From NCBI GenBank assembly GCA_013151865.1, contig JAADHN010000068.1, forward strand, positions 1 to 40,650: 40,650 nucleotides of DNA. The letters are read 5' to 3'. Positions 14,428 through 31,565 of this stretch are shown in pieces. This DNA is from Kiritimatiellota bacterium. Its GTDB lineage: Bacteria > Verrucomicrobiota > Lentisphaeria > Oligosphaerales > JAADHN01. How positions within the stretch are numbered: the first letter of the stretch is position 1; the number at the start of each line of letters is the position of its first letter. The notes under the pieces are model-generated. The model was not told the DNA's origin. It saw only the letters and a list, made by a program, of their open reading frames with translations, and made no database searches. The position numbers and the translations under genes are program-made.

Positions 14428-15750
14428 ATGGATCAAAAAGCGCTATTCATCTCCGGCGTCGTTCTTCTCCTGTTGGCCCTCGAACGCCTGTTCGTGCTGA
14501 CCGTCACCACCAACCCCGCCGGCAGGGCCTGGGTCCGGAAACGACGGCTGCTCCACCCCAACGCCATCTCCATCGTGCGCATCCCGATGGGCCTGGTCAC
14601 CATGTTCCTCTGGATGGCAGGGTGGCGGGAAATCGCCATTGTCTGGTTCGCATTCTGGATGATAACCGACCTGACCGACGGCGCCATCGCCCGCAATTGC
14701 GACCTCGGCACTCCGGCCGGCAAGTGGCTCGACCCGCTCAGCGACAAATGCATGTATTTCCCGACGCTCGCCTATTTCGCCTACCACGGCGTCCTGAACC
14801 CGCACTGGGTCATTTCCTTGTTGATCATCGACGCGGCCGGGCAGGCTTCGCGTCTTTTCGTGCGCAAAAAGGCAGCCAATCTTTTTGGTAAAGCCAAGAC
14901 CGCCCTGATCACCATCCTCCTGGCCCTGACGGCGTTGGACCAGATCGGCAGCATTTCTTTCGTGACCGCTCGATTCCTCGAACTGTCTACGTTTTCCTGC
15001 GCCCTCTTGGCGTTTCTATCCTTTTACTGCAAAGTGGTGCCGGATACCTGGTACGCCAACACCCTCACGCTCGCCAACTTCACCTGCGGCGTGGCCGCCA
15101 TTTGGAACGTGCTGACCGCACACCCGTTGCGGGCCTTCGTGTTGGTCTTTCTCGGCCAGTTCTTCGACCTGTTCGACGGACGTCTGGCCCGCAAGTTCGG
15201 TTCGACCCCGCGCGGGGCGGTCTACGACGACATCGCCGATGCGACCAATTTCGGTTTGGCCGTCGGCCTGCTGGTGTACTACCAGTTGGGCCGGGACGGA
15301 CCCGCAGCCATCGTGGCCGTCGTCTTCCTGCTCTGCACCGTTTACCGCCTGCTCCGCTACCTGCGCCGGCCGCCGACCGCGGACGGCGGCACGTTCCTCG
15401 GTCTCCCGTCTCCCGCCGGGGCCATGTTGGCCGGCTCGGCCGTACTGCTCTTTCCCCGCGGTCACGTCGGCCACGTGCTGGTCGTGATGGCGTCCGGACT
15501 GATGGTCTCCCACATCCGCTATCGACATTTCGGCCGGCGGATCTGGCCAGCCCTGCCCACTTGGCTCAAACTGCTTGGCTTCATCGGCGTGCTGATCTTT
15601 ATCAACAACAGTATCGCACATCGACAGAGCGACGCGTTTGCCACCCTGGCATTCGCGTTGGGAGTATTGTACGTGATGTACGGCGTGGCCCACGCTCCGC
15701 GGTCGCAAAAACCTGCGCAAACCGCCCCGGACGTCTCCACCCCGGATTGA
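14428..15750 (+). CDS. tandem CDP-alcohol phosphatidyltransferase (PgsA-like + PssA-like)
   Basis: The 440-residue membrane protein contains two complete CDP-alcohol phosphatidyltransferase motifs. The N-terminal half has the PgsA-like lead LLHPNAISIVRIP and the motif D81-x2-DG-x2-AR-x8-G98-x3-D102-x3-D106. The C-terminal half has the PssA-like lead NTLTLANFTCG and D247-x2-DG-x2-AR-x7-G263-x3-D267-x3-D271. All metal-binding Asp residues are kept in both. Each half has several hydrophobic helices, and single enzymes of the family are about 180-250 residues, so this looks like a true fusion. Enzymes of this family attach head groups (glycerol-phosphate, serine, inositol) to CDP-diacylglycerol. 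The last gene of the array, 36 nt after the CorC-type gene, it would complete the lipid pathway begun by plsX. Substrates of each half cannot be read from sequence. Confidence 0.85.
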   Translation: MDQKALFISGVVLLLLALERLFVLTVTTNPAGRAWVRKRRLLHPNAISIVRIPMGLVTMFLWMAGWREIAIVWFAFWMITDLTDGAIARNCDLGTPAGKWLDPLSDKCMYFPTLAYFAYHGVLNPHWVISLLIIDAAGQASRLFVRKKAANLFGKAKTALITILLALTALDQIGSISFVTARFLELSTFSCALLAFLSFYCKVVPDTWYANTLTLANFTCGVAAIWNVLTAHPLRAFVLVFLGQFFDLFDGRLARKFGSTPRGAVYDDIADATNFGLAVGLLVYYQLGRDGPAAIVAVVFLLCTVYRLLRYLRRPPTADGGTFLGLPSPAGAMLAGSAVLLFPRGHVGHVLVVMASGLMVSHIRYRHFGRRIWPALPTWLKLLGFIGVLIFINNSIAHRQSDAFATLAFALGVLYVMYGVAHAPRSQKPAQTAPDVSTPD

Positions 15751-15758
15751 GGCGCAAG

Positions 15759-15785
15759 AGTCGGGGGCCCGCCGCCTTCCCGACT
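15759..15785. terminator. possible hairpin in convergent gap
   Basis: AGTCGGG at 15759-15765 pairs with CCCGACT at 15779-15785 around a 13-nt loop, just after the stop of the phosphatidyltransferase gene. There is no clear T-run, so it is at best a weak or factor-assisted terminator. The rest of the convergent gap to 16029 shows no gene. Confidence 0.25.
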
Positions 15786-16029
15786 GCCCCGAAAACATGC
15801 GGGGTGGCCCATAGGGAACGCGCCTCTCGCGGCTGCGCCGGGTTCGTGCGCGAGATGGGTTCGGGCTTCCTTGCCCGGCGGGAAGCGCCGCGATGCCTCG
15901 AAAGCCCGGATTGAGTACGCTGGGTGAGGAAGTCTGAGGTCGCCGCTCGCCCGGAAACCATCCCGAACACGGCGGAATCCGCACCCTCGGCACGAGCCAT
16001 GCAATCGTTTCGAGGCGACCGGTGAGCCG

Positions 16030-17463
16030 TCACCCGCTCTTCGGGTGTGGGCGCCGATGCAGATACTCGACCATGGGCGGGGGCGCCGGATCGCACACCT
16101 CGTTCAACCGCGCCGGCAGCGGCTGCCCCACCACCGCTTCCACGCGCCTGCGGAGTTCGCACACCACGTCGGGGTGAGCGTCGGCGACGTTCTCGTTCTC
16201 TTCCGGGTCATTCCGCAGGTCGAACAACACCTCCGGCGCCTCGGTCCGGTGAACGGGAGTCACGTAGTTCCACCGGTCGGTGCGTACCGAAGCGAAAGCG
16301 GCGGCGTTCGGCGTCCCCGTCGGCTGCACAGCCCAGCCGATAACCACGTCGTCCCGGATTCTCTCGGCCTCCTCGCGGACCAGGGGCATTGCGCTCACGC
16401 CGTCGGTCCGGTCATAGGAAATGCCCAGCAGATCCAGCAGCGTGGGCATGACGTCATGGCTCTGCACAAAGGCCGGGACCCGGCGGCCCGGGCGGCCGGG
16501 TACGCGCATCTGCCAGACGATGCCCGTGTTGTAGGCCCGCATGTTGCCGCCGCCCTTGCCGAAACCGCCGTGGTCCCAGACCTGGGTGCCGTGGTCCGAC
16601 AGGACCAGGACCACCGTGTCTTCGAGCAACCCCAGCTCCCGTGCTTTGTCAAGAAGACGGCCCACCCAAAAGTCCACGAATGTGACCTCCCCGAAGTACA
16701 GGGCCCTGGTCCGCTCGATTTCCGCTGCCGTGGGGTTCGGGCCGAGTCGCGGCATGATGAAGTCGATCCCGCTGTAGCCGGGGCAGTACCTGTCCGCGAA
16801 TCGGCGGGGCGGGTCCCACGGTTCATGGGGGTCGAAGGCTTCGATCCACAGCAGGAAGGGTTTGTTGGCGGCGTTCTCGCCGAGCCAATCCATAGCGGTC
16901 CGAAACACCCGGGCGCACTGGTAATCCTCCTCGCCCTGCCGGAATCGCTGGTTTTGGAGGTATTGGTACAGCACCGCGTTGCGCACCAGGTCCTCGGGAT
17001 CGCGCGTGTAGCGCTTCATCGCTTCGGCGACGAGTTCCGGGGCGCCGCACTTCCAGTTGTCCGACTCCTGGCCGCGGAGGAACTCGTAGGTGGTGAACCC
17101 CCGCCAGTAGTTCATGGTCGGCTTGAACATGTGGTACACGTCCGCCACCAGACCCGTGCAGTATCCCCGGGCCGAGAGCACTTCAGCCAGCGTGTCCTGC
17201 TCGGGAGGTATTTTGTGCCAGCCGGGCTGGTGATGCCAGTGGCCGCGCCGGTCGAAGTTGTATACGAACGGAAACGACCGCCGCCCCGTGAAAAACGCCC
17301 GGCGGACCTGGAGCGTCGGCTGTCCTTCGCCGAAGGCGCGCTCGAATACAATGCTCTCCCGAGCCAGGGCGTCGAGATTCGGCGTTTCCACGAAGTTCAG
17401 TTTTCCCGCTGCGCCGATGATGTCCGCACGGAAAGTGTCCAACACAATGGCGATCGCGTTCAT
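16030..17463 (-). CDS. sulfatase-fold hydrolase with Thr in nucleophile position
   Basis: This 477-residue member of the alkaline-phosphatase/sulfatase superfamily keeps the metal-binding start (AIVLDTFRAD, Asp9), TPNLDALA and SDHGTQVWDHG. In sulfatases the nucleophile motif C/S-x-P-x-R should begin ten residues after the aromatic of VRF-like segments. Here that position is Thr50, in TLQVRRAFFTGRR (ACG codon at 17314-17316), and the Pro is Gln. It therefore cannot form formylglycine. Thr is the nucleophile in other branches of the superfamily (phosphodiesterases, phosphopentomutase), so a phosphoester or unknown substrate is likely. There is no signal peptide, so it is probably cytoplasmic. 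ATG at 17463 follows GGGGAGAG; the longer frame to 17664 overlaps the upstream sulfatase. It lies 40 nt after that gene. Confidence 0.82.
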   Translation of the reverse strand: MNAIAIVLDTFRADIIGAAGKLNFVETPNLDALARESIVFERAFGEGQPTLQVRRAFFTGRRSFPFVYNFDRRGHWHHQPGWHKIPPEQDTLAEVLSARGYCTGLVADVYHMFKPTMNYWRGFTTYEFLRGQESDNWKCGAPELVAEAMKRYTRDPEDLVRNAVLYQYLQNQRFRQGEEDYQCARVFRTAMDWLGENAANKPFLLWIEAFDPHEPWDPPRRFADRYCPGYSGIDFIMPRLGPNPTAAEIERTRALYFGEVTFVDFWVGRLLDKARELGLLEDTVVLVLSDHGTQVWDHGGFGKGGGNMRAYNTGIVWQMRVPGRPGRRVPAFVQSHDVMPTLLDLLGISYDRTDGVSAMPLVREEAERIRDDVVIGWAVQPTGTPNAAAFASVRTDRWNYVTPVHRTEAPEVLFDLRNDPEENENVADAHPDVVCELRRRVEAVVGQPLPARLNEVCDPAPPPMVEYLHRRPHPKSG

Positions 17464-17503
17464 GGGTTCTCTCCCCGTGTTGAGTCGGTCCCGGGCGTGC
17501 CCG

Positions 17504-19015
17504 TCAGAGCCGGAGCTGCTCGGGGTACAGGCAGCGCCCGGTCTCGAGGTCGATCCGTTCCACGTAGTACGCCGTGTCTTCGAAACGGTCGCCGGTGGCC
17601 TCCAGCCATTGATCCAGCGCGGTATCCAGTTCAGGCGGGACGGCGCCCGCACCGCGTTCCGCAATCAAGTTGCGCATCTGGTATGGATCGCGTTCGTTGT
17701 CGAACAGAAGCCAGGGGCCGCGTCGGTCCCGAATGTAAGTGTGGGTGCGGGTGCGGACCCCACGATACGGGCGAATGAAACCTTTTGGGCCGCCGTGCCC
17801 GGGAAAATCGTCGATGGCCGACCATTTCTTGCCCCAAGTGACGGCGGAACAGACCCAGAGCAGAAATGCGGCGCGGTCTTTCGGGTCGGGGGCCTCGGCA
17901 CGCAGGATCGGGGCGAGGTCCTCGCCCTCGAGGTCCGCCGGCGCCGGAACATTCATCAAGCCGAGCAACGTCGGAAGAATGTCCGGCAGATTCACAGGCG
18001 CCTCGATCCGCATACCGGGGCGGATACACCGCGGGAAGCGCACCAACAAAGGCACACGGACGGACTCGTCCCAAGGCTGGCATTTGTACATCTGTGCATG
18101 GGAGCCCAGCAATTCCCCGTGGTCGGCGGTAAACACCACGAGCGTATCGTCGCCAATCCCTTCGGCGTCCAGCACGTCCAGGAGTCGGCCGAGATTGCGG
18201 TCGAGGCTGGAGATTGCCGCATAGTACCATGCCGTTCGGTCGCGCAACGTTTTTTCCCGTTCTTCGGCTGCGCCGAGTGCGGGGGCGGGGGGGAAGCCGG
18301 GCGGCGGTTCGAGAATGTTCGGGCGCAATTCGAGCCGGCCGGGGTCGTACAGGGACCGGAACTCCGGCGGTGCAGTGAACGGCGTATGCGGCGGCCCCCA
18401 GGACACAACCAGGGCGAACGGCTTGCGCTGTTCCGGTCCGCCCCCGGCGTGGTCGCGAATAAACTCGATGGCCAAACGAGTCTGGGCGTCCGGTTCCCAC
18501 CCCTCGATCCGGACCGGCTCCGGCGCATCGCGGTAGTAAGTCGCGTTCCAGTACGCGTGCGAACAGTGGTGCGTGGCCCAGTAGTCGAACCCGTGGCGCA
18601 TGGCGCCCGGCGGGATCCATCCGCTTCGACGCCGATTGAAACGCGTGCGGTCGATGAACGCTTCTCCGGCCAAATGCCACTTGCCGATATGCCCGGTGGC
18701 GTACCCGTGCTCTCTCAGAATGCGCCCCAGGCTCGGCACGTTCTCCGGCAGCATCGAGTTGTTCGTCAACACCGTATGCGTGAGCGGATACTGTCCGGTC
18801 AACAGGCAGGCCCGGGCCGGCGTGCATACCGGAGCATTGGAAACGGCGTGCCGAAACAAGGCGCCCTCGGCCGCCAGACGGTCCAAGTTCGGCGTGCGCA
18901 CCTGGCCATTGCCGGCGCAGCCCATGGCCATGTACCGCATCTGGTCCACAAGCACGAAGACCAGGTTCGGCGATCTCCGGTTTTCAGGGCCGGGTCGTTT
19001 CACGGTTTGACTCAC
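17504..19015 (-). CDS. sulfatase (Cys-type, formylglycine-dependent)
   Basis: This sulfatase of about 503 residues has the classical site Cys64-Thr-Pro-Ala-Arg68 followed by ACLLTGQYP. The Cys should be converted to formylglycine. Other motifs are SPNLVFVLVDQMR (metal Asp24), TPNLDRLAAEG, GHIGKWHL (catalytic Lys/His region) and FTADHGELLGSH. It would hydrolyse sulfate esters, probably on a glycan. No maturase gene is in the window. No convincing signal peptide is visible with the start chosen. GTG at 19015 is picked because family members begin about 15 residues before the SPNLV block; ATG at 19093 is an alternative and neither has a strong ribosome-binding site. It lies 160 nt after the propeller protein and 40 nt before the second sulfatase, likely one transcript. 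Confidence 0.85.
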   Translation of the reverse strand: MSQTVKRPGPENRRSPNLVFVLVDQMRYMAMGCAGNGQVRTPNLDRLAAEGALFRHAVSNAPVCTPARACLLTGQYPLTHTVLTNNSMLPENVPSLGRILREHGYATGHIGKWHLAGEAFIDRTRFNRRRSGWIPPGAMRHGFDYWATHHCSHAYWNATYYRDAPEPVRIEGWEPDAQTRLAIEFIRDHAGGGPEQRKPFALVVSWGPPHTPFTAPPEFRSLYDPGRLELRPNILEPPPGFPPAPALGAAEEREKTLRDRTAWYYAAISSLDRNLGRLLDVLDAEGIGDDTLVVFTADHGELLGSHAQMYKCQPWDESVRVPLLVRFPRCIRPGMRIEAPVNLPDILPTLLGLMNVPAPADLEGEDLAPILRAEAPDPKDRAAFLLWVCSAVTWGKKWSAIDDFPGHGGPKGFIRPYRGVRTRTHTYIRDRRGPWLLFDNERDPYQMRNLIAERGAGAVPPELDTALDQWLEATGDRFEDTAYYVERIDLETGRCLYPEQLRL

Positions 19016-19175
19016 GGAAGCCCATTCCCAACCTCGCGGTGCGGCTCTGAGTTGCCCGATCCGAACAATGCTGCAGGACGTGCGAGTCTGCATCGCGTTC
19101 CGGACGATTCCGAGGCGGCCCGCGCCTCCGTTCGCCCGCCGAAGGACCGCCGCTCGGCAATCCTTCCGCAAGACT

Positions 19176-22100
19176 TCACCTGATACAGGTGACGGCCCCA
19201 TCGAGAGTGCTGATGTACAGCGCGCCCGCCGCACCCGCCATGCCGTCCCAAACGGGAGGGGACGACAATTCGATCCGGTGCAGTTCGCGACCCGTGTCCG
19301 GGGCGATGGCGAGCAGGAGCGCACCGCGTTTCCCGCTCATGATCGCTTCCTGTTCCGCCAGCATCTGTTTCACGTCGGGATCGCGCAGGCGGCGATACGT
19401 GTCTTCTTCGTCGATCACGTCGCGCGGCCCGGCCACGAAAAGCGCTTTGGTGGTGTTGACCATGGCGCGAACGAATATGGGGGACGGGCGCGACCAGCGA
19501 TAGGCGAACTTGACTTGTCGTCGCAATCGGACCCTGCCGCGGCGATCCACCGGCGGCGTACCGAGAGCCATGCCGCGGCCCCACTTTCCAGCGGCGGGAA
19601 CGGCGCCCACTCCCCCGTGATTGCCGTTGCCGCTTTCGTCCAAAGCGTCGCCCGCGTTGAACGAGTAGTACAACACCAAGCCCTGCCTCGAAGCTGTGCT
19701 TGCGGATTTCGCCAGCGCGGCAACCTCGTTCTTCGCCAGGGCCCGGTGGTAGATGCGCACTTCGTCGATGAGACCTTTCAGGGGAGTGGATCGCTTGTAA
19801 TCGCCCACCGGGGACCCGGCGTCGACGCCGATCTGCATGGCCTCGTTGGGAGTGGCGGCGATGAACCCGGCCGACTTGCCGGTCGCCGCTTCCGCGCCGT
19901 CGAGGTACAGGTGCATGCTCTTGTCAGTGCCGAGGACGCCGGCCACATGCTGCCACTGGCGGGGCCGGACCCTGCCGCCCTCGATCTGCTGGAGCTTGCC
20001 GTTGATCCGGAGGGCGAACGCGGCTCTGCCGTCTTTCAGCATCAGTCCGTAGCCGTGCGAAGCGCCGCCGCGGGCGATGATGACGCCGTTGCCCGAGTCG
20101 GGCCTGATCCAGGCGCTGACGGTCAAAGGCTTCCCTTTCGGGTCGAGGCTGGGGCCCCCCGCGACACCGATTCCGCCGGCCGGCGGCGGTGGACGATTCG
20201 GCTTGACCGGGGGGTTGCGGTCTGCGGCGAAAAGGTGGTACTCCAGCGGTACCGCCCAGGTGAAGTATTTGGGACCGCGGCCGAAACCGAACACGCGCCG
20301 GGCATCGAAAGTCAGGATGCGGCCCGCCGGGGTATTCTGGCCGGCGCGTGCCCACCAGTTGCAGCCGGAAGAGTAGCGTCGACCGAAAAGCCAATACGCC
20401 CGATGAAACCAAGTCCCGTCCAAGTATCCGGTCGGACAGAACAGGTGCCGGTCGTCGCCCTGCTGCGCATCCGCCAACGCGATGGGGTCGGTGGGTTGGG
20501 GGACCGGCAGTTCATACGTGCCGTCGAGCTTGAACGGCTGGGAGCGCATGTAAACGTACCGGCCGTCGGTCGACAGAACATCCGGCAGCGCCACGGGCAT
20601 ATTCAGCACCCGAGTGAGCGATTGGAGGTCCTCGTCGCCGCCCGGCACTTTGCCGTCGAGCACCGTTTCGGAAAGAACTTCGCCGGTGGTCGCTTTCACC
20701 CGGAACAACTTCATGCCGCCGTCCAGAAACGCGGCGCGACCGGCAACGAAGTACACCACCCCGTTCCGCACCATCACGCTGCCGTGGACCGGCCAGGGCG
20801 ATTCGAGCTGCCCGAAAGCGGACAAGGCGCGGTCGACGGGGGCGGCGCGCAGTTGCCAGCAGAGCGCACCGTCCGTGGCCCGCAGTGCGGTGACGCGGCC
20901 GTCCGCACTGCCGAAGATGACGCGGCCGCCGACCACGGTCGGAGGGGAGTCGATCCGCCCGTTTACGGTAAAGCGCCAGCGCATCGAGCCGTCGTCTTGA
21001 TTCAACGCATAGAGGGTGTGGGCATCGACGGCGGCGACAAAGACCGTTCCGCCGGCGACCACCGGGCTGGTCAAGCGACCGCCGAGTTCCGTTCGCCAGC
21101 CCGGTGCGACCGCGGGCTCGATCTCGGCGGAGGCACTCCCGCTGCGCGCCGCATCGTGCCGGTACGTCGGCCAGTCCGTGGATGCAACCGCCCTGTCCGC
21201 CACAGCGTCGAACGCCGGACCTTTGAGCAAGCGCGCCTGCCGGGTCAGTTCCCGATCGACTGGCCGGCGGGCTTTTCCCGCGGCCACTGCGTTGAAGCCG
21301 CGGAGTTTGCTCTCCAGGTAGCACGCGCAACTGTGGGGCGGGGCGTAGATCAACCCATTGCAGGGCATGATGCCGTAGATGCAGCCGCCGCGAATCCAGT
21401 GATTGATCTGCCAGTGCTGCTTGCGAAAATCGACAAACTCGATCCCGGTCCGCGAGGGAAGGAGGTAATTCATCGTGGCCTTGCTGCGATAGCAGCGGTG
21501 GTGGAACCAGTAGGTTTCCACGTCGGGTGCGAACTCGTTTTTCACCACGCCGGTCCGCGGGTCCCGCCCCTTCCAGACGCCGCTTCTCTTGCCGTCGGCA
21601 ATGTCCCCGGCCCAAACCAACCCGCCGACCACCATCAAATCCTCCTGCGAGCAGTGACCGGAGGGCGGATGATGGGCGGTCCACAGGACCGTGCCGGCAG
21701 CGGCGTCCAGTCCCCACATTCTGCGATCGCCGCCCGTGAACAAGACCGTGTCTTTGTATATGATCAGGTTCGGCCCGAACCGCCGGGGGATGTATCTCTT
21801 GCGGGACACGGGCGTCGACCGCCAGAGGCGTTTGCCCGACTTCCGGTCCAGGGCCAGGACGCTCTTGCCGTCATGAAAATAGAGGCGCGCCCCGTCCGCT
21901 GCCGGCGTCATCGGAGCGACGGGCGTCTCGTATCGCCAGAGCACTTTCCCCGAGCGCAGGTCGATCGCCGTCAGCAGGCGAGGTTTTTCATCCCAGCCGC
22001 GCGTACGGCTAAGCGTTCTCGTGTCGTTCCAGACGCCGCTACGGTCGGGAACGAACGGGTCCGGATCGGGCCGGGCATTGGGATTGACCACCGCGAACAG

Positions 22101-23069
22101 CACCCCGTCGGACACGATCAATTCCTCTGCACCGCGGGTCTGCGCATAAACCGCCAGCGTCTTGCCGGTGGCGGCGTCCAGGACGCTGATCGGCGCACGA
22201 ATTCCAAGCGTGACGTATACCCGGTCGTCGATGGCGACCAGGCGCCGGGTCAAGTCCGCCGGCCCGCTCTTCATGGCCCACAGGTGGAAATGCCACTCGG
22301 GAATGTCGCGCTTCCACAGCGTTGTGCCGTTGAACGCGTCTCTGGCAATCAGTTTCCACTTCGGGGGAAGTTGGATAATGGCGCGCGAGCCCTCGTCCAT
22401 GATGTAAAAGATGCGGCCGCCGGTGGACACCAGCGCACTCATGCTGGCCATACGGTCGTGGTGCCTGGACCAGCGCGGGGCGCCGACCCACTGCAAATGT
22501 TCCGGAGGAGCCACCACGTCGTCCTGCGCAACGGGATTGCCGGTGGCGTCGTGCAGGTAATGCGTCCACTCGTCGATTGCGCCGGGCCGAGGTTTGACGA
22601 TCGTTTCCCACTTGCGACCGCGCCGCACGCAGGCCTTGCCGTTCGGGGCGAGCACGCGCAGCAGTTCCGCTTTCGGCACGCTGTCCGGCCGTTCGACAAT
22701 GAGCAGATTGACAAGGTTATCGATGTACGGGAGGTATGGAGGTTGCCAGAGGCGCAGGGAAACCCGGCCATACAACCCCTCGTCCAGCAACCGGGATCGA
22801 ACCTTGCCCAACGCATCGGCATCTGTCATAAGTCCTTGGGCGAGCACACCGTTTCCTGTGGCGATCCGGCGCAGGACGTTGGCGTCTCCACAGCCGACAT
22901 GCACCACCAGGCCGCCGCTGAACCCGCTCTGCTCGAGCACGGTTGCCGCATCCTGCTCCGCCCCCCCGACTGCGGCGCATTCCGTCCCGACCGGACAGGC
23001 GACGAGGAAGGCGACGAGCACGACGGTCTGCCGCCAACTGTTCCCGGGTTGGGTCCGCAGGTGAATCAT
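19176..23069 (-). CDS. exported methyltransferase-like / PQQ-propeller / LamG protein
   Basis: This 1297-residue protein starts with a signal sequence (hydrophobic residues 15-28). LVAC at 22-25 could be a lipobox. Residues 45-150 resemble a Rossmann methyltransferase: VHVGCGD at 56-62 (motif I), an acidic strand near 80-85, YIDNLVNLLIVE at 115-126 and ELLRVLAPNGKACV at 135-148. After a conserved DEWTHYLHDATGN linker comes a long PQQ-like/BamB-type beta-propeller (about 165-900) with repeats such as LxAxDxxxGxxLW. A LamG/concanavalin-like region (about 960-1190) includes ARGGASHGYGLML and YYSFNAGDALDESGNGNHG. A last propeller blade ends the chain (LDGAVTCIR), as if LamG were inserted before ring closure. 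The role may be substrate binding or an oxidoreductase; a propeller alone does not prove PQQ use. ATG at 23069 has GAGAG seven bases upstream. First gene of the sulfatase group. Confidence 0.85.
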   Translation of the reverse strand: MIHLRTQPGNSWRQTVVLVAFLVACPVGTECAAVGGAEQDAATVLEQSGFSGGLVVHVGCGDANVLRRIATGNGVLAQGLMTDADALGKVRSRLLDEGLYGRVSLRLWQPPYLPYIDNLVNLLIVERPDSVPKAELLRVLAPNGKACVRRGRKWETIVKPRPGAIDEWTHYLHDATGNPVAQDDVVAPPEHLQWVGAPRWSRHHDRMASMSALVSTGGRIFYIMDEGSRAIIQLPPKWKLIARDAFNGTTLWKRDIPEWHFHLWAMKSGPADLTRRLVAIDDRVYVTLGIRAPISVLDAATGKTLAVYAQTRGAEELIVSDGVLFAVVNPNARPDPDPFVPDRSGVWNDTRTLSRTRGWDEKPRLLTAIDLRSGKVLWRYETPVAPMTPAADGARLYFHDGKSVLALDRKSGKRLWRSTPVSRKRYIPRRFGPNLIIYKDTVLFTGGDRRMWGLDAAAGTVLWTAHHPPSGHCSQEDLMVVGGLVWAGDIADGKRSGVWKGRDPRTGVVKNEFAPDVETYWFHHRCYRSKATMNYLLPSRTGIEFVDFRKQHWQINHWIRGGCIYGIMPCNGLIYAPPHSCACYLESKLRGFNAVAAGKARRPVDRELTRQARLLKGPAFDAVADRAVASTDWPTYRHDAARSGSASAEIEPAVAPGWRTELGGRLTSPVVAGGTVFVAAVDAHTLYALNQDDGSMRWRFTVNGRIDSPPTVVGGRVIFGSADGRVTALRATDGALCWQLRAAPVDRALSAFGQLESPWPVHGSVMVRNGVVYFVAGRAAFLDGGMKLFRVKATTGEVLSETVLDGKVPGGDEDLQSLTRVLNMPVALPDVLSTDGRYVYMRSQPFKLDGTYELPVPQPTDPIALADAQQGDDRHLFCPTGYLDGTWFHRAYWLFGRRYSSGCNWWARAGQNTPAGRILTFDARRVFGFGRGPKYFTWAVPLEYHLFAADRNPPVKPNRPPPPAGGIGVAGGPSLDPKGKPLTVSAWIRPDSGNGVIIARGGASHGYGLMLKDGRAAFALRINGKLQQIEGGRVRPRQWQHVAGVLGTDKSMHLYLDGAEAATGKSAGFIAATPNEAMQIGVDAGSPVGDYKRSTPLKGLIDEVRIYHRALAKNEVAALAKSASTASRQGLVLYYSFNAGDALDESGNGNHGGVGAVPAAGKWGRGMALGTPPVDRRGRVRLRRQVKFAYRWSRPSPIFVRAMVNTTKALFVAGPRDVIDEEDTYRRLRDPDVKQMLAEQEAIMSGKRGALLLAIAPDTGRELHRIELSSPPVWDGMAGAAGALYISTLDGAVTCIR

Positions 23070-23403
23070 ATCGACTCTCTTGTTTTGCAGCCCGTTTTCA
23101 CTGTCCGGGCGGCGAGCCGGACGTTCCGACGGTTCACAGTCGTGTGTCCGCGGCGGCGGCCCCTACCGGACGACCAGCCCCCGGGCTGCGGTGCGGGCGT
23201 GAGTGAGGGAAGGGAAAAATAGTGTCGGGTAACTGTGGATGCAAGAGTCCGGCGGCGGACGGTGTTGCGGCCGGAGGGCGACGGACAAGACCGGCGCCGA
23301 ACCCCCGGTTACGTCGGGGACCCCGGTCTACGACCACGACCGGCCCCGATGCGCTCGCCCTTCGGTCCGCGGCCGCCGCATCAGACGGGCGCCCTCGAAA
23401 AAG
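23070..23403. other. non-coding gap upstream of propeller gene
   Basis: About 334 nt lie between the C45-type gene and the propeller gene, both on the minus strand. No gene is supported. It contains the candidate promoter at 23216-23244. I see no strong terminator for the C45-type gene; its stop is followed on the minus strand by CTTTTTC but no clear stem precedes it. Confidence 0.5.
23216..23244 (-). promoter_or_regulatory. candidate promoter for propeller-sulfatase operon
   Basis: On the minus strand TTGCAT (23244-23239) and TATTTT (23221-23216) are spaced by exactly 17 nt in a GC-rich background. Initiation near 23209 would give a leader of about 140 nt before the ATG at 23069. The matches to consensus are three and four of six, so the call is tentative. 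Confidence 0.35.
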
Positions 23404-25356
23404 TCAAGGACCGGTGCGGCCGGCGCTTTTCCCGGACGCGCGCGAGGGGCCCGCCACGGCAGAGGCGCGGAGCAGGCGCCCGAGGTTGAACTTCGCCGGG
23501 GGCCGAGTGTCCGCCGGTTCTCCCCGGACGCCGGCGTCGGCCACCCAGAAGTCCAACGTTTCCGGCATAAAGAGAGCCACGTGCAGGCACGAACGCATGG
23601 CCACTCCCTGGCGCATGATCTTCCAGGCGATCTCCGGCGTGATCTTTCCGTAATTGGCCGCGACTCGATCCACCAGAGTCTGGTAACGTTTCCCCGCCGA
23701 CATGAGCACACAGTCCTTCAAAGGACGCTGCAACATCGGGTGCGAAGCGCCGGCCTCGATCACCTGCAGGTCGGGAACGCCCTTCTTTTCGGCCAACTTC
23801 GCGGCCCAAGACGCGATTCCCACCATATCTTTTCCCTTGGCGCTCGAGAGCACGTAGAAGTACTCGCACGTTCGCGGGACCGATCGAATCCAGGCCAAAG
23901 CGTCCCGCACATTGTCGTAGTTCTCCATGACCTGCCGCACCAGGAACATCATCGGAATCCCGTCCACATACCCTTCGCCTCCACCCCCCATTTCCCCCAT
24001 GGCCAACCCCTTGGCGTTCATGGCGGTCACGCTGCCCACGCAGCCGGCGTACCCGATATTGACCCAGGCGTTCCGGCCTTTCGGCGCCATGACAAGCACG
24101 ACGGCGTTCAACTGCAGTCCGCCCTCGGTCATATAATCCAGGACCCGGCCGTGGATCAGCCGTCCGTCGCTGGTGGCCGCGCCCCGCAGTGCCAGGCCCG
24201 AGCAGTGGAACATCTCCGGGTAGACATTCGCCCACCGCGCCCAATCCCGGGGGACCCCTGCGGCGTCCGCCATCGCATCGATCTCGACGACCAAATCGTC
24301 GGGAATCCATTTCCGCTGCCGGTCCCAAATCTCCTTGAGCTGGCCGGGAAGCCACTCACCGCTCTGCACGGTCCGGACGAACCCGACCCCGTGCAGAATA
24401 CGGTCTATGTTGTCTCGAACCGCCGTGCGCATCAGGGTACCCTGCTGCCGGCCCATCTCCTCGGGCGTCCCGCGCACCACCACCACGGTCTTGCCTTGCT
24501 GCGGGGTGAGCCCCGGGAAATGCGACGGCAACGCCTTCGGCTGGATCGCGGCGACGGCTTTTTCGCAGAGCATGTCGACGAAAGTTCGGAGCATGGCCCG
24601 CAGTTCGGTATCGTCCACTCGGCGCTCGCGGCCCGGGGCGGCGGGCGGGGCCGTCAAGCCGTCCAGGATCTTGGCATCGCCCCGGTCCCAGCGGGAGAGC
24701 GTGAGTTCCGCTTCGAACGGTTTCGTCACCGTCACCCGGACCGGACCGGCGCCCGGCTTGCCCTCGATCCGGACATGCCATTTGCCGTCGCCGGGTTCGA
24801 GCACCCAGCCGCCGCTCTCGGTGCGTTCGAGCACAAAATCGTCCGGCAACGGGGCCAGGGCCGCCCCCATGACGGCCGCAGCCGCCTGGGCCCGGAGCAG
24901 GGGCCACACGCGGCACAAGGCCGTCGGCTTTTTGGCAGCGGGACCTTGGGGCGCCCCCGAAAAAAGCACGTTCTTGGGCGGCACGAACAACCAACTCGAA
25001 GTGGGCGTGAAACCCAGGTTTGCCGTGCCGTACTCGGGCAAGGCGATCCGAACTGCCTGGCGACCCGCCCCGTCCCAGGCCAGCAGGAACCGACCGTTGT
25101 GTTTGCCCACGCGCACCGTCCCTTGGCACACCCAGGCCTGTCCGGCCGGCAGCGGCTGCGCCATGGGCTGCAGCAGACGCATAAGCAATCGCAGCAGGTC
25201 TGCCCGCGCCGCGGCACGAGCGTCGGCGGCCGGTCGGACCAATTTGCCTTCGGCGGGCCGAGCCGGGACTTTGTCCGCAGCATGAACTCCGCAGAATCCT
25301 AAGAAGGACCCGACGATCAGGAGTAAACCGGCTATGACTCGTTTCATTTTCGCCAT
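23404..25356 (-). CDS. secreted C45-type Ntn hydrolase with long N-terminal region
   Basis: The 650-residue protein starts with a signal peptide (basic MAKMKR, hydrophobic core, cleavage likely after GVHA). Residues about 315-610 resemble peptidase family C45/acyl-CoA:6-aminopenicillanate acyltransferases. The segment VRGTPEEMGRQQG precedes the nucleophile block HCSGLALRGAATSDGRLIHGRVLDY, with Cys385 the predicted N-terminal nucleophile after self-cleavage. MNAKGLAMGEMGGGGEG and a CEYFYVLSS segment follow. Family enzymes cleave or transfer acyl groups on amides. The first 300 residues after the signal peptide have no domain I recognise; if processing occurs before Cys385, this part would become the alpha chain. 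GGAA lies eight bases before the ATG at 25356. It is divergent from the sensor-kinase gene. Substrate unknown. Confidence 0.75.
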   Translation of the reverse strand: MAKMKRVIAGLLLIVGSFLGFCGVHAADKVPARPAEGKLVRPAADARAAARADLLRLLMRLLQPMAQPLPAGQAWVCQGTVRVGKHNGRFLLAWDGAGRQAVRIALPEYGTANLGFTPTSSWLFVPPKNVLFSGAPQGPAAKKPTALCRVWPLLRAQAAAAVMGAALAPLPDDFVLERTESGGWVLEPGDGKWHVRIEGKPGAGPVRVTVTKPFEAELTLSRWDRGDAKILDGLTAPPAAPGRERRVDDTELRAMLRTFVDMLCEKAVAAIQPKALPSHFPGLTPQQGKTVVVVRGTPEEMGRQQGTLMRTAVRDNIDRILHGVGFVRTVQSGEWLPGQLKEIWDRQRKWIPDDLVVEIDAMADAAGVPRDWARWANVYPEMFHCSGLALRGAATSDGRLIHGRVLDYMTEGGLQLNAVVLVMAPKGRNAWVNIGYAGCVGSVTAMNAKGLAMGEMGGGGEGYVDGIPMMFLVRQVMENYDNVRDALAWIRSVPRTCEYFYVLSSAKGKDMVGIASWAAKLAEKKGVPDLQVIEAGASHPMLQRPLKDCVLMSAGKRYQTLVDRVAANYGKITPEIAWKIMRQGVAMRSCLHVALFMPETLDFWVADAGVRGEPADTRPPAKFNLGRLLRASAVAGPSRASGKSAGRTGP

Positions 25357-25729
25357 CCCGTTTTCCGACGCGACAACAATTGCGGGCAAGCTGCAGAGAT
25401 CGAGTTTCCGACATTAGCCCCCGACCCGACGATTTCAAGCCGCTTCCGGCTCGAGACGGGTCCCCTTGCAGAGTCGGCCGGGGACGGTACGTTTCGAGGA
25501 GGCGGCGACACGAACACGACGCGACGAGAGGACAAAGCGACAAAGAGAAAACCGGGAGCCGCGGTTCGGGGCGCCCGACCGCTTGACCCGAACGGGTATG
25601 GCTGCAGGACGTCTTGGAGGTTTGGCTTTGCCCCGGGTTCGACGATCTCCCGTGACCTCGACCCCGGATTCCCTGCGACCCGCGCAACGTCGTGCCGAGA
25701 ATGGGCAGGCGAGAATTCGGAGAACTGCC
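25357..25729. other. divergent intergenic region before sensor kinase
   Basis: This 373-nt gap lies between the minus-strand C45-type gene and the plus-strand sensor kinase. No gene is supported; frames extending the kinase upstream to 25466 lack family similarity and a ribosome-binding site. A promoter candidate for the minus strand is at 25411-25438. I could not see a convincing one for the plus strand. Confidence 0.5.
25411..25438 (-). promoter_or_regulatory. candidate promoter for C45-type gene
   Basis: TTGAAA (minus strand, 25438-25433, five of six to the -35 consensus) is followed after 16 nt by TAATGT (25416-25411). Initiation near 25404 would leave a leader of about 48 nt. The same GGGCTAATGT string recurs at 39178-39169 on the minus strand. 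Confidence 0.35.
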
Positions 25730-28700
25730 ATGCGTATTCCGCATCGAACCATGCGGCGCGCAATACTGTTCCTTTGCTTGGCGGCCATGGCGGCGGACCC
25801 GACTTCGCGCGGCGCTCCGCCGACAACCCCGCCCGGGCGAACGGTACGCGTCGGTCTCTACGAAAACCCTCCCAAGATCTTTGTCGATGAGCACGGAGAT
25901 CCTGACGGCTTCTGGGCAGTCCTGGTGCAGCACATCGCCCGGCAAGCCGGGTGGCGCGTGCAGTGGGTGCACGGGACATGGAAACAATGTCTGACTCGCC
26001 TGGCAAACAAGGAGATAGACGTGCTGCCGGATACCGGCTGGACACCGGAACGCGCGCGACAATTCGCGTTTTGTACGGAAACGCCCGTGGTCAGTTGGTG
26101 CCGGCTCTACACGTCTCGCGAGGCAAACGTCGAGTCTATTCTGGACCTGAACGGCAAAACGATTGCAGGCTTGGCCAACAGCTTTGATCTGGAGGGACCG
26201 CAAGGGCTCAAAGACTTGGCCCGCAGTTTCGGACTCACGTGCCGCTTCCTGGAAATGCCCAGCTACGATGCGATTTTCAGGGCGGTGCGAAAAAAAACGG
26301 CGGACGCCGGTTTGGCAGACGGCGATTTCGGCCGGTTGAATGCACGCCGATACGGACTGAAAAGCACGCCTGTGATCATTCAACCGACGCGAATGCTTTT
26401 CGCTTTCCCCAAAGACGCTCCCATGACGCCTCGACTGATTGCCGAGGTGGACTCCAATCTGGCCCGACTCAAGCGTGACAAGCGGTCCATCTACTATCAG
26501 GCCAAGAAGACGTTTCTCGGACCCCGGGGAATCTCCATCGTCAAAGAAGTGGTTCCTCATTGGGCGAAGACGTTGCTCGCCGTCCTCGGGGGCGCCCTCT
26601 TTTTCGTCGGCGCGGTCGCGTTCGTCTCCCGGACTCAGGTGCGTCGCCGGACCGCGGCGCTGCGCCTGAGTGAGGAACGCTTCCGTCTGGCCTTCATGAC
26701 CAATCCGGACGCCATCAATCTGAATCGCTTGGCTGACGGTCTCTTCGTCGACGTCAATGACGGTTTCACAAACATAACAGGTTACACACGGGAGGAGGTC
26801 ATCGGCAAGACCTCCCGGGAGATCTCCATTTGGGCGAACATCGAAGACCGAGAGAGAATGATGCAAGGCCTGCAGAATTCCGGGAAGGTCGCCAATCTCG
26901 AGGCGCCCTTTCGACTGAAAGACGGCCGAATCGCCACGGGGCTCTTGTCCGCGAGCCTGATCACTTTGAACGGCGAGACGCATATTATCTCCATCACGCG
27001 TGATATCAGCGAATTGAAGCGGACGCAACAGGCCCTGCGCGCCAGCGAGGCCCGCTTCCGTCGCCTGTTCGAAGAATCGCCTGTCGCGCTTTGGGAAGAA
27101 GACTGCACCGTGTTGCTGGCTCATCTCGACGAACTCTACCGGTCCGGGGTCCCGAAAACGGATTTGAACGCCTGGCTCGAAGCGCATCCGGAGGCGCTGG
27201 CCGCGTGCACCCGCCACGTTCGGATCGTGAATGTGAACGCGGCGGCGGTTGCACAGTTCCAGGCAAAGAACAAGGAAGAGTTGCGACGGTCCTGGGAACG
27301 CACGTTTTCGGAAAACTCGTTCGAGGCGTTCCGGGAAGCAGTCGTCGCCGTGGCCGAGGGGCGCACGAGTTTCGGCATGGAAGCGGAGATGCAGACCTTG
27401 CGCGGAAGAAGAATCGATGTGTCTGTCCACTTCTCGCTCGCGCCGAAGCGCGGCAGCGATTTGGATTCAACCCACACCATCATCGTCGCCACGGTGGATG
27501 TGACGCCGATCAAACGTGCCGAACGCGCCTTGAAGCAGAGCCTGTACGAACTGCGCGAACTCCATGAATTGAGCGCGCGAATTCGCGCCAATCTCTCGCC
27601 CGAAGTCGTGGCGAAAGAAACCATCGCCCTGGCCGGCAAAGCCGTCGGCGCGGACATCGCCCTGTTCTTTGCTTGCCGGGACGATCGTCTGGAACTGCTC
27701 GCGTCCGAGACCGGAACGGTCCCGCTCGGACCCGAGGCCATGCGCCACCGCGAAGTCGTTCGGTGTCTCTGCGGTCCCGTGGCTTCAGCCCGGGAGCCGG
27801 TGTATTCCAAGGACATCCGCACCGATCCGCGCTGCCGGCTCGACGAATGCAATCCGGAGGGCATCCGCTCTTTCGCCGGTCTGCCTCTGATTGCGGGTGA
27901 CCGGGTCCTGGGACTGGTGGCGTTGGCGTCCGTCGCCGAGCGCGATTTCGAGCGAGAGCGGGTGTTCCTCGAGACCCTGGGAAACGAGGTGGCTATCGGC
28001 TTCCAAAACGCCCAGATCCTCGAACGCTTACGCAAACACCAGGCAGAACTCGAACGACGAGTCCGGGAGCGCACCGCTGAACTCGAGGCCGTCAATCGCG
28101 AACTCGAAGCCTTCTCCTACTCCGTATCCCATGACCTGCGCGGACCCCTGCGCGCCATCGACGGGTTTTCGCGCATCCTCGCCGAGGAGTATGAGCAAAA
28201 ACTGGACGACGAAGCCCATCGATTGATCGACGTCGTGCGGGACAACACCCGCCGCATGGCCCAACTCATCGACGACCTGCTCGCCTTCTCCCGGGTCAGT
28301 CGACACCCCATCGAACGCCGCGTCATCGACATGTCCGCGCTGGCTCGCGCCGTCTACGCCGAACTGATCGACGATGTACAACGCACCCGAGTCCGTCTCA
28401 CCGTGCAAGAAATGCCGCCGGCCCGGGCGGATTCGTCTCTGATGCGCCAAGTCTTTGCCAACCTGATCGCCAATGCCCTCAAGTTTACCGCTCGCGAAGA
28501 AACAGCGAGAATCGAGATCGGTTCCAAGATTGAAAACGGGGAGACCGTTTACTACATTAGCGATAACGGGGTCGGCTTCGATATGCAATACAGCGACAAA
28601 CTGTTCCAGGTTTTCCAACGCTTGCATCCGCAGGAAGAATTCGGAGGGACCGGGATCGGGCTGTCCATTGTCGAACGGATCGTCGTCCGCCACGGCGGTC

Positions 28701-28765
28701 GAGTCTGGGCCGAGAGTGAATTGGGTCGGGGCGCCACATTCTATCTTGCGCTGCCGAATGCGTAG
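25730..28765 (+). CDS. transmembrane sensor histidine kinase with periplasmic solute-binding domain
   Basis: The 1011-residue kinase has a signal/anchor (residues 8-22), a periplasmic SBP_bac_3-type domain (about 38-265, starting TVRVGLYENPPK), a transmembrane helix at about 277-298, PAS at about 312-425, a second PAS with a long insertion at about 434-590, GAF at about 612-760 and a coiled-coil linker. The HisKA dimerisation domain has phospho-acceptor His801 in SVSHDLRGPL, and the HATPase domain (about 885-1008) shows NLIANALKF, ISDNGVGFD and GGTGIGLSI. It should bind a small extracellular ligand and pass the signal by phosphorylation. ATG at 25730 has GGAG seven bases upstream. The next two genes are a single-domain regulator and a hybrid kinase, forming a local phosphorelay. 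Confidence 0.88.
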   Translation: MRIPHRTMRRAILFLCLAAMAADPTSRGAPPTTPPGRTVRVGLYENPPKIFVDEHGDPDGFWAVLVQHIARQAGWRVQWVHGTWKQCLTRLANKEIDVLPDTGWTPERARQFAFCTETPVVSWCRLYTSREANVESILDLNGKTIAGLANSFDLEGPQGLKDLARSFGLTCRFLEMPSYDAIFRAVRKKTADAGLADGDFGRLNARRYGLKSTPVIIQPTRMLFAFPKDAPMTPRLIAEVDSNLARLKRDKRSIYYQAKKTFLGPRGISIVKEVVPHWAKTLLAVLGGALFFVGAVAFVSRTQVRRRTAALRLSEERFRLAFMTNPDAINLNRLADGLFVDVNDGFTNITGYTREEVIGKTSREISIWANIEDRERMMQGLQNSGKVANLEAPFRLKDGRIATGLLSASLITLNGETHIISITRDISELKRTQQALRASEARFRRLFEESPVALWEEDCTVLLAHLDELYRSGVPKTDLNAWLEAHPEALAACTRHVRIVNVNAAAVAQFQAKNKEELRRSWERTFSENSFEAFREAVVAVAEGRTSFGMEAEMQTLRGRRIDVSVHFSLAPKRGSDLDSTHTIIVATVDVTPIKRAERALKQSLYELRELHELSARIRANLSPEVVAKETIALAGKAVGADIALFFACRDDRLELLASETGTVPLGPEAMRHREVVRCLCGPVASAREPVYSKDIRTDPRCRLDECNPEGIRSFAGLPLIAGDRVLGLVALASVAERDFERERVFLETLGNEVAIGFQNAQILERLRKHQAELERRVRERTAELEAVNRELEAFSYSVSHDLRGPLRAIDGFSRILAEEYEQKLDDEAHRLIDVVRDNTRRMAQLIDDLLAFSRVSRHPIERRVIDMSALARAVYAELIDDVQRTRVRLTVQEMPPARADSSLMRQVFANLIANALKFTAREETARIEIGSKIENGETVYYISDNGVGFDMQYSDKLFQVFQRLHPQEEFGGTGIGLSIVERIVVRHGGRVWAESELGRGATFYLALPNA

Positions 28766-28800
28766 AACACGGGAACCGACCGCCGGGGCGGACAGGAAAC

Positions 28801-29250
28801 ATGAACGCGCAACCAACGCAGATCGTCCTGATCGAGGACAGCCCCGCGGACGCGGAATTGACCGTCCGCGCTCTGAAAAAGCACCGTGTCGCCAATGAGA
28901 TTCTCCTGCTCAAGGACGGCGAGGAAGCTCTGGAGTACTTCTTCGCCACCGGATCATACGCCGGTCGCCCCCCCCTGCCGTTGCCCAAACTGGTCCTGCT
29001 CGATCTGAAATTGCCCAAAGTGGATGGGCTCGAAGTCCTGCGCCGACTCAAAACCGACCCCGGAACGCGACGGATTCCGGTCGTTATCCTCACGGCCTCG
29101 CGAGAAGAACGGGATTTGGCTGAGAGCTACGAACTCGGGGTCAACAGCTACTTGGTCAAGCCCGTCAATTCCGGTCAATTCGCGGAGACCGCACGGACCC
29201 TCGGCTTGTACTGGTTGTTGCTCAATCAAATCGCGGACAAAGAAGTATGA
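28801..29250 (+). CDS. CheY/Rcp1-like response regulator
   Basis: This is a 149-residue single receiver domain without an output domain. The phospho-acceptor is Asp68 (LVLLDLKLPKVDG), with acidic pocket residues in the LIEDSPAD block near residue 12, switch Thr98 (VVILTAS) and Lys120 (YLVKPV). The shape, with the extended PPLPLPKLVLLDLKLP segment, resembles Rcp1-type regulators that accept phosphate from GAF/PAS kinases such as the one just upstream. It starts 35 nt after the kinase and overlaps the next gene by ATGA, so all three are probably cotranslated. Output would be by protein-protein contact or phosphotransfer. Confidence 0.92.
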   Translation: MNAQPTQIVLIEDSPADAELTVRALKKHRVANEILLLKDGEEALEYFFATGSYAGRPPLPLPKLVLLDLKLPKVDGLEVLRRLKTDPGTRRIPVVILTASREERDLAESYELGVNSYLVKPVNSGQFAETARTLGLYWLLLNQIADKEV

Positions 29251-31565
29251 CCATGGTTTGTCGAGAAAAAGGCTCGCTGCGTATTTTGATGGTGGAAGAC
29301 GTGGCCGCCGACGTGGAGTTGATCCGGCGGGAACTGAAGAAATTGGACCATCCGATTGCGCTGAAAGTCGTGATGGAGGAAGACGAGCTGCGCCGGGAGC
29401 TGGCGGCTTTTCGTCCGAGCCTGGTGCTCTCCGATTTCATGTTGCCGAGGTTCGATGGACTCCGGGCACTGAGGATCGTCCAGGAGTTCGATCCCGACCT
29501 GCCGTTCATCATCGTCACAGGGTCGTTGAACGAACTGACCGCGGTCGAGTGCATGAAAGCAGGGGCCTGGGATTACGTTATCAAGGAGAAATTGGCAAAG
29601 CTGGTCCCGGCCGTCGAGGGCGCCCTGAACAGGCGGAAACTTGTCCTGGAGAACCGCCGCACAATTCAGGCCCTGAAAGAAAGCGAAAAACGCTTTCGCA
29701 CTTTCACCGAACACGCGCCCCTGGCCATCGTCGTCTACGTGGACGGCAAAGTGGACTATGCCAACGCAAAAGCCGCGGAAATCGTCGGCGTGGACGCTGC
29801 GGAACTCATCGGGAGAAGTATGCTCGATTTCATCCACCCGGATCACCACGCGCAAGTTAAGAGGCGGTATGCACGGGCGCTGAACAACGAGAAACTCGAG
29901 ACCGTCGAAGAACAACTGCTCCTGCCCGGCAACCGAGTGATCGACGTGGAAGTGAACGCCATGCCGATCGAGATCGCCGGCAAGCGCGGCGTGATGGCTA
30001 TCCTGAACGACATCACCCGGCGCAAACAGGCGGAAGCCGAGGTGAGAAAACTCTCCCAGGCAGTCGAGCAAAGTCCGATTTCCGTGGTCATCACCGATGC
30101 TCTCGCCGACATCGAATACGTCAACGCCACGTTCTCGAAAATCACGGGGTATGCCCCGGAGGAAGTCATCGGCCGGAACCCGCGCATCCTCCAGTCCGGA
30201 CAGACGCCGCCGGAGACCTACGAAGAACTTTGGAGCACGGTCACCGTCGGCAAAGTTTGGAGCGGCGAATTCATCAACAAAAAAAAGGACGGCGCAATAT
30301 TCTGGGAAAAAGCGGTCGTCAGCCCCATGTTCGGGGCAAACGGACAGATATCCCATTACCTGGGGATGAAAGAGGATGTCACGGAACTGCATCGGCTCGA
30401 AGAGCGCATCCGCCAAGCCCAAAAGATGGAAGCGCTCGGCAACTTGGCGGGGGGGATCGCCCACGACCTCAACAACATCCTGACTCCCATCGTCGGTTAC
30501 ACGGACATGTCACGCGACATGGTCCCCCCGAACAGCGAACTTCACGACCAACTCAACCAGGTGATTCTGGCCTCCAAACGCGCCAAGGAACTGATCCAAC
30601 AATTGCTCTCGTTCAGCCGGCAGTCGGCCAAGGAGCGGAAACCCGTCGACCTGACGACCATTGCAAGAGAAGTCCTGAAGCTCCTGCGTGCCGGCGTCCC
30701 CAGCACAATCCGAATCGTATCGAAAATCGAACCGGTCAAGGAACGGGTGTTGGCCGACCCGACCGAAATTCACCAGGCCCTGTTGAACCTGGGGACAAAC
30801 GCCGCCCATGCCATGCCGGACGGCGGCAAGCTGACGGTCGGGCTGCACACCGAGACAATCGACGAGGATGCGGCCGAAAAACACCCGGACCTGTCGCCCG
30901 GAATTTACTTGAGACTTTGGGTCGAAGACACGGGTACGGGCATTCCCGCGGAGATCCGCGACCGGATCTTCGAGCCGTATTTCACCACCAAGCCCAAAGG
31001 CCGCGGCACCGGCTTCGGGCTGGCCCAGGTCCATGCCGTCGTCACCGATTGCGGCGGCGCAATTACCGTGTACAGCGAACCCGACCGGGGCGCTGTGTTC
31101 AATCTTTACTTCCCCACCGTCGGCCGAGACCGGTCCGAGGACACCACGGTGGTCCGCGAGAAACCGAAGCCCGGGAACGAGAAAATCCTGTTTGTCGACG
31201 ACGAATCGGCCATCGCCCGACTCGCCGTGAGAATGCTCGGCGCATTCGGCTATCGCGTCACCAGTCGCACCGACCCGGCGAGTGCCCTCGAATTGGTGCG
31301 CAACGACCCCGACGCTTTCGATCTCGTCGTCACGGACATGACCATGCCCGGCATGACCGGGGACCGGTTGGCACAGGCAATCCTGGAAATCAGACCCGAT
31401 ATGCCCATTGTCCTCTGCACCGGCTTCAGCGAGAAAATCGACGCCGAGATAGCTCGGAAACTCGGTATCGGACGCTTCCTGTTCAAACCCCTCACTGCCG
31501 ACGACCTTGCCCGCACCGTGCGTGAATTGTTGGACGAGCGCGGGAAGGCGCCGCCGGTTCACTGA
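29247..31565 (+). CDS. hybrid histidine kinase REC-PAS-PAS-HisKA-HATPase-REC
   Basis: The 772-residue cytoplasmic hybrid kinase has an N-terminal receiver (Asp63 in [12 protein letters not shown], Thr91, Lys113), two PAS domains (about 145-260 and 263-385), HisKA with His406 in [11 protein letters not shown], HATPase (about 505-625; [22 protein letters not shown]) and a C-terminal receiver (about 645-760; Asp697 in [17 protein letters not shown]). No membrane segment is seen. With the upstream kinase and single receiver it makes three receivers and two kinase cores in one transcript. No DNA-binding output domain is present, so the target regulator must be elsewhere. The ATG overlaps the previous stop (ATGA). 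Confidence 0.9.

Follow-up and report, generated by a model that had tools for sequence, protein, structure and literature searches.

A predicted exported protein of a Kiritimatiellota bacterium combining a pseudo-methyltransferase domain, propellers and a LamG domain, and its family in PVC bacteria

The stretch of 40,650 nucleotides analyzed here (the window; positions 1 to 40,650 of contig JAADHN010000068.1, GenBank assembly GCA_013151865.1, from a Kiritimatiellota bacterium) carries on its reverse strand, at 19176-23069, a gene encoding, from ATG to stop, a protein of 1297 amino acids. We propose, with a probability of about 0.5, that this is an exported, non-methylating carbohydrate-handling protein of the Planctomycetes-Verrucomicrobia-Chlamydiae (PVC) bacteria, in which a pseudo-methyltransferase is retained as a structural module. 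It is neither an S-adenosylmethionine (SAM) methyltransferase enzyme nor BamB, and it belongs to a family that is widespread in PVC bacteria, highly paralogous and unstudied. The component folds are known, while the combined architecture is undescribed as far as the literature shows; a search of literature with incomplete journal coverage found no description of it.

An earlier note on this DNA had described the product as an exported fusion of a methyltransferase-like fold, a propeller of the pyrroloquinoline quinone (PQQ) type and a LamG domain. The exported fusion is borne out by the limits of the open reading frame (ORF) and by the hydrophobic stretch TVVLVAFLVACPVG, which is preceded by basic residues and lies N-terminal to the Rossmann domain; a hydrophobicity scan revealed signal-like stretches ahead of this domain also in 30 homologues. 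On these sequence features the protein is predicted to be exported. A lipobox-like LVAC occupies residues 22-25 of the window protein, ending in C25, and no conservation of the lipobox was found across the 30 homologues. The domain order is the same in 30/30 of these close homologues, of which the closest (L021, identical with G001:C197 and counted once) shares 72% identity over residues 40-1296.

The pseudo-methyltransferase domain

The N-terminal domain contains the VHVGCGD block (residues 56-62) and the later block LLRVLAPNGKACV (about residues 136-148), which had suggested a methyltransferase. Taken singly, the window sequence exceeded the cut-off of none of the Pfam methyltransferase models (MetW 11.2 bits against a cut-off of 21). 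When a profile was built on residues 40-175 of the 30 homologues and compared with the PDB, it matched methyltransferases (3dlc, E 4.8e-10; 4pne, 9.1e-10; 3bus, 1.5e-8), and 20-21/30 members individually matched Methyltransf_11 or Methyltransf_25. The Rossmann fold expected at residues 45-150 is present in an AlphaFold2 model of residues 36-966 (mean predicted local distance difference test, pLDDT, 84.6; predicted template modelling score, pTM, 0.90), in which residues 37-158 are arranged as helix-strand-helix-strand-helix-strand-strand-helix-strand with a mean pLDDT of about 85-96 per block. Although the single sequence falls below the cut-offs, the assignment is not a chance one, because the family profile, the individual Pfam matches and the model agree.

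With class I SAM methyltransferases (the Methyltransf_11/25/UbiE type, including the three structures above) the domain shares the Rossmann core beta1-beta5, the glycine motif and the LPY.DN and E..RVLxPxG blocks. Unlike them, the window protein lacks the acid of motif I, the Asp of motif IV and the full sheet, and it is exported and joined to propellers. Twelve ordinary Methyltransf_11 proteins found in the same genome served as controls for the conservation of SAM-contact residues. An acid at the motif I position was found in 0/30 homologues and 12/12 controls (Fisher 9e-11), its place being taken by H, V, I, Q or Y, never D/E (H57 in the window protein). Motif IV, where beta4 begins, likewise lacks its Asp in all 30 homologues, of which 29 have N and one has T (N121 in the window protein), whereas 10/12 controls have D (Fisher 4.5e-8). 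Both P values are only a guide, as related sequences are not independent. In the AlphaFold2 strand list beta6 and beta7 of the seven-stranded sheet are missing: a single strand follows beta5 and the propeller begins. Judged by these residues, the domain cannot be a normal SAM enzyme and is best regarded as a pseudo-enzyme; a genuine SAM enzyme was rejected, and SAM binding in the known mode is not expected of the window protein. The earlier note had doubted SAM chemistry outside the cytoplasm, where SAM is not expected, and this puzzle is resolved because the SAM-contact acids are gone.

Propellers, the LamG domain and permuted relatives

The opening W-x-x-Y-x-H-D occurs twice, as WTHYLHD at residue 168 and WPTYRHD at 633, each followed by PQQ-type repeats, and PQQ_2 matches the window protein in three stretches (E 2.7e-38). 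Together with the AlphaFold2 strand lists (a second model covers the propellers and LamG, residues 150-1297, pLDDT 86.7, pTM 0.80) and with the separation of the two units in permuted relatives described below, this indicates that two propellers appear in tandem. The propeller fold proposed earlier is thus upheld by the PQQ_2 matches and the models, while the idea of a single propeller is not.

Conservation peaks in propeller 1: compared with the nearest homologue it is 83% identical, while propeller 2 reaches 72%, the last segment 65%, LamG 63% and the Rossmann domain 60%. Within it C526, C563, C581, C583 and N571 are found in 30/30 homologues, H523, R525, E544 and R560 in 29/30 and H579 in 27/30. 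In an exported protein such cysteines would suggest disulfides or a metal site. A further cysteine, C1295 of the C-terminal propeller segment, is kept in 29/30.

As the earlier note had proposed, LamG is inserted ahead of the last propeller segment: Laminin_G_3 matches residues 979-1117 at nearly full length (E 3.6e-24; 86 bits against a cut-off of 27.6; profile positions 16-151 of 151), before the segment at 1190-1297. Such a match is shared with the common Laminin_G_3 / ConA-like lectin domains; unlike the typical ones, this domain sits within a propeller-bearing protein and is optional in its family, being present in 8/30 homologues and replaced by 0-36 residues in the others. A tree of the core that all members share places the eight LamG members within one clade of 11 (support 0.946), which comprises both Planctomycetota and Verrucomicrobiota/Lentisphaerae members. 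The simplest history is therefore a single insertion followed by a few losses.

The N-terminal profile matched 16 times in the genome of the window (G000) at E <= 1e-10, and 12 of these matches lie within proteins that have the domain order of the window protein (type A). Ten further proteins (type B; ORFs of 1270-1844 amino acids on contigs C75, C113, C30, C98, C64, C19, C87, C46, C82 and C27, L064-L073) were found via their propellers, which brings the family to about 22 copies in this genome. In type B the order is a propeller-2-like unit, the pseudo-methyltransferase (detected in 9/10) and a propeller-1-like unit, so that propeller 2, which follows the propeller 1 module in type A, here precedes the pseudo-methyltransferase. 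In 30/30 type A proteins and 9/10 own-genome type B proteins the pseudo-methyltransferase stands directly ahead of propeller 1, and the two are thus kept as one module in both domain orders. The motif I acids are absent from type B where it could be aligned, as is the cysteine pattern of type A. Domains similar to 3-keto-disaccharide hydrolase, malectin, CBM96 or LamG are carried by four of the six type B proteins scanned. For one type B protein a weak resemblance to the lambda-carrageenase propeller (E 2.6e-5, just under the cut-off) was noted and not used.

Of 383 genomes sampled from the phylum to which the window's genome belongs, 28 have the domain at E <= 1e-15. When 84,980 species were scanned, each represented by a single genome, with exact peptides as seeds and hence a bias to near relatives, 18 loci were returned, all from PVC or unnamed bacteria except for a 4.6-kb contig labelled Nealsonbacteria, which is probably misbinned. 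At L028:3118-15534 and at L088:1-10480 about four family genes lie in tandem.

Neighbouring genes and competing explanations

The features of the window protein and its neighbours are collected in Table 1.

Table 1 Coordinates of the fusion gene, its predicted domains and neighbouring genes (window positions unless a locus is named)
Feature	Residues	Position	Strand	Basis
Fusion ORF (export signal, pseudo-methyltransferase, propeller 1, propeller 2, LamG, closing propeller segment)		19176..23069	-	ORF reading, Pfam
Predicted export signal	1-33	22971..23069	-	Sequence; hydrophobicity scan, 30 homologues
Pseudo-methyltransferase Rossmann domain, with beta1-beta5 plus an extra strand and without the SAM acids	36-158	22596..22964	-	AlphaFold2, PDB profile, Pfam, residue table, controls
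Propeller 1, begins at DEWTHYLHD	164-612	21234..22580	-	PQQ_2 in 30/30 members; AlphaFold2; per-domain identity
Conserved cluster in propeller 1	523-588	21306..21503	-	Conservation counts, 30 homologues
Propeller 2, main part, begins at DWPTYRHD	628-958	20196..21188	-	PQQ_2 best stretch 657-824; AlphaFold2
LamG / Laminin_G_3 ConA-like domain	976-1120	19710..20144	-	Pfam E 3.6e-24; same place in 8/30 homologues
C-terminal propeller segment, after LamG	1190-1297	19179..19502	-	Found in LamG-bearing and LamG-less homologues
Sulfatase gene, next downstream, gap about 80 bp, CTPAR nucleophile motif		17504..19093	-	Sulfatase E 1.3e-53
Second sulfatase-superfamily gene, TLQVR (Thr at nucleophile place)		16030..17463	-	PF00884 113 bits
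Recurrent neighbour sets		L022:9968-13538, L023:4773-5909, L037:9503-12111, L078:2248-4646

The two genes following the fusion belong to the sulfatase superfamily. Because Thr replaces Cys/Ser at the nucleophile place, the product of the second may be phosphodiesterase-like or an otherwise altered member. PMC6388578 describes PVC bacteria as having exceptionally many sulfatases for sulfated polysaccharides, and the genome of the window has about 73 sulfatase genes (75 matches). A sulfatase lies within about 1 kb of 4/22 own-genome family genes (the window, C73, C46 and C27), compared with about 0.5 expected. In other genomes about 8/33 fetched loci have an adjoining sulfatase, still above expectation at a threefold sulfatase density (P 0.002). 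When the distance was relaxed to about 6 kb, 2/11 fetched own-genome loci had a sulfatase, near background and with no excess; only immediate adjacency looks enriched. Other neighbours at the fetched loci include proteins resembling glycosidases by sequence.

The proposed carbohydrate-handling role combines these elements. The pseudo-methyltransferase would have a structural part, capping propeller 1 or forming an interface with it. The working site would lie in propeller 1, built on the four invariant cysteines and the conserved His, Arg, Glu and Asp residues. It could be a disulfide-braced pocket for a ligand, could hold a metal or could be catalytic, and propeller 1 may either catalyse a reaction or only bind. 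LamG, or malectin/CBM96 in the permuted relatives, would dock the protein to polysaccharide, and the neighbouring sulfatases would act on the same glycan, which is probably sulfated.

Several points weigh against this proposal. To our knowledge no family member has a known activity or ligand, and the putative clustering of the Cys and His residues of propeller 1 in space is read from the sequence only. The own-genome adjacency P of 0.002 (computed with 23 loci) comes from a test picked post hoc, which assumes the sulfatase density of that genome and independent loci, and many family members have no sulfatase nearby. PVC genomes abound in sulfatases and ConA-like domains, and both associations may partly be background. 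Three LamG-type loci (L022, L023 and L037) neighbour instead a secreted CNIPVFRYALERW...CGACSCQVKDLNPGFD protein with no Pfam match, and at L022 and L037 there is also an SBP_bac_11 (ModA-like) binding protein in doubled form. In the window's own genome a LamG-less member on C21 (L078) is located near a doubled binding protein and a permease. A general link to ModA-like transporters was rejected, as it concerns a few loci and is absent from most.

A possible, if somewhat doubtful, alternative is that the protein is a pure scaffold, its propellers, pseudo-methyltransferase and LamG merely joining envelope proteins or the surface matrix in the manner of BamB, with no site for a small molecule. 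The comparison with BamB, PQQ dehydrogenases and methyltransferases that the earlier note had called for was carried out; it gave methyltransferases for the Rossmann part and, for propeller 1, BamB ahead of any dehydrogenase. Among natural propellers of solved structure those of BamB lie closest in sequence. The blade repeat, the fold and the envelope location are common to BamB and the window protein. It has also been reported that the planctomycete Tuwongella immobilis has 28 BamB-annotated paralogues of 43-193 kDa, of which five were detected in and assigned to cell fractions (PMC8567305). Such PVC paralogues are probably the wider group that holds the present family, although a methyltransferase-derived domain is not among their features in the searchable literature. 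Unlike the single-propeller BamB, the window protein has two propellers, 1297 residues, a pseudo-methyltransferase, LamG and a conserved cysteine cluster, and the lipobox is not kept across its family; the BamB model TIGR03300 scores 95 bits on it against a cut-off of 285. The cluster of invariant Cys and conserved His, Arg, Glu and Asp residues in propeller 1 exceeds the apparent needs of a scaffold.

More specific than carbohydrate handling, and held only tentatively as rather unlikely, is the reading that propeller 1, whose cysteines are invariant and whose histidines are conserved, acts on sulfated polysaccharides as a new type of exported enzyme or metal site, accompanied throughout by a former SAM methyltransferase fold that was domesticated outside the cytoplasm and occurs with it in both permuted architectures of the PVC bacteria. 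Comparison of structures by Foldseek gave as best match the tetrathionate hydrolase 6l8a (template modelling score to target 0.42-0.46, root mean square deviation about 20 Å); the top matches extend across the two propellers and were given no weight as evidence on function.

The earlier note had further suggested that the Rossmann part was reused as a ligand or cofactor sensor, its pocket binding outside the cytoplasm a small molecule such as a nucleoside, a SAM breakdown product or a sugar. The domain has been kept, not lost; many relatives retain GxGxG, and the acid of post-I at the end of beta2, which contacts the ribose hydroxyls, is D/E in 19/30 relatives and 12/12 controls. For the window protein this idea fares badly, and we judge it quite improbable: the contact positions are H57, A63, M81 (the post-I position), Q109 and N121, a pocket that has decayed further than that of most relatives, and the domain diverges more quickly than propeller 1 does (60% versus 83% identity). 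Its invariant residues (L80, R91, P114, E135, R138, P142 and G144) look like structural residues of the parent methyltransferase family. In the 19 relatives with the post-I acid the old pocket could still have a role.

The propeller type, together with profile and fold matches to quinoprotein dehydrogenases, would suit a PQQ-dependent, sugar-oxidising dehydrogenase with the methyltransferase shell as a lid. This reading is very improbable: the profile matches are restricted to the generic blade repeat, BamB outscores every dehydrogenase for propeller 1, and the window protein has neither the adjacent Cys pair found near PQQ in many such enzymes nor a CxxCH haem site. In the search for Ca/Ln ligands and a catalytic Asp, the profile alignments showed blades only. 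"PQQ-type" should be read as a fold label, which implies neither bound PQQ nor a quinoprotein.

Elsewhere in the window, the gene upstream of the fusion (23404-25356, reverse strand) encodes a PF03417 (acyl-CoA:6-aminopenicillanic acid acyltransferase) domain behind a signal-like N-terminus. On the forward strand, 25751-28765 encodes a sensor kinase with SBP_bac_3, PAS, GAF and HisKA domains, with response-regulator genes after it, and 31766-35509 a protein of 1247 amino acids whose sole match is DUF6259. An Rfam scan of 15000-29500 and a PADLOC search gave no match.

Meaning for the family

The apparent SAM enzyme outside the cell is explained by a fold that was retained while its chemistry is dead. 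It would mislead to annotate proteins of this kind as BamB or as PQQ proteins. The module of pseudo-methyltransferase and propeller, found in two domain orders, offers a testable case of the reuse of an enzyme fold. The family is large and unstudied, with about 22 copies in one genome, and occurs in bacteria known to degrade sulfated polysaccharides; it probably helps Planctomycetota and Verrucomicrobiota to handle extracellular polysaccharides.

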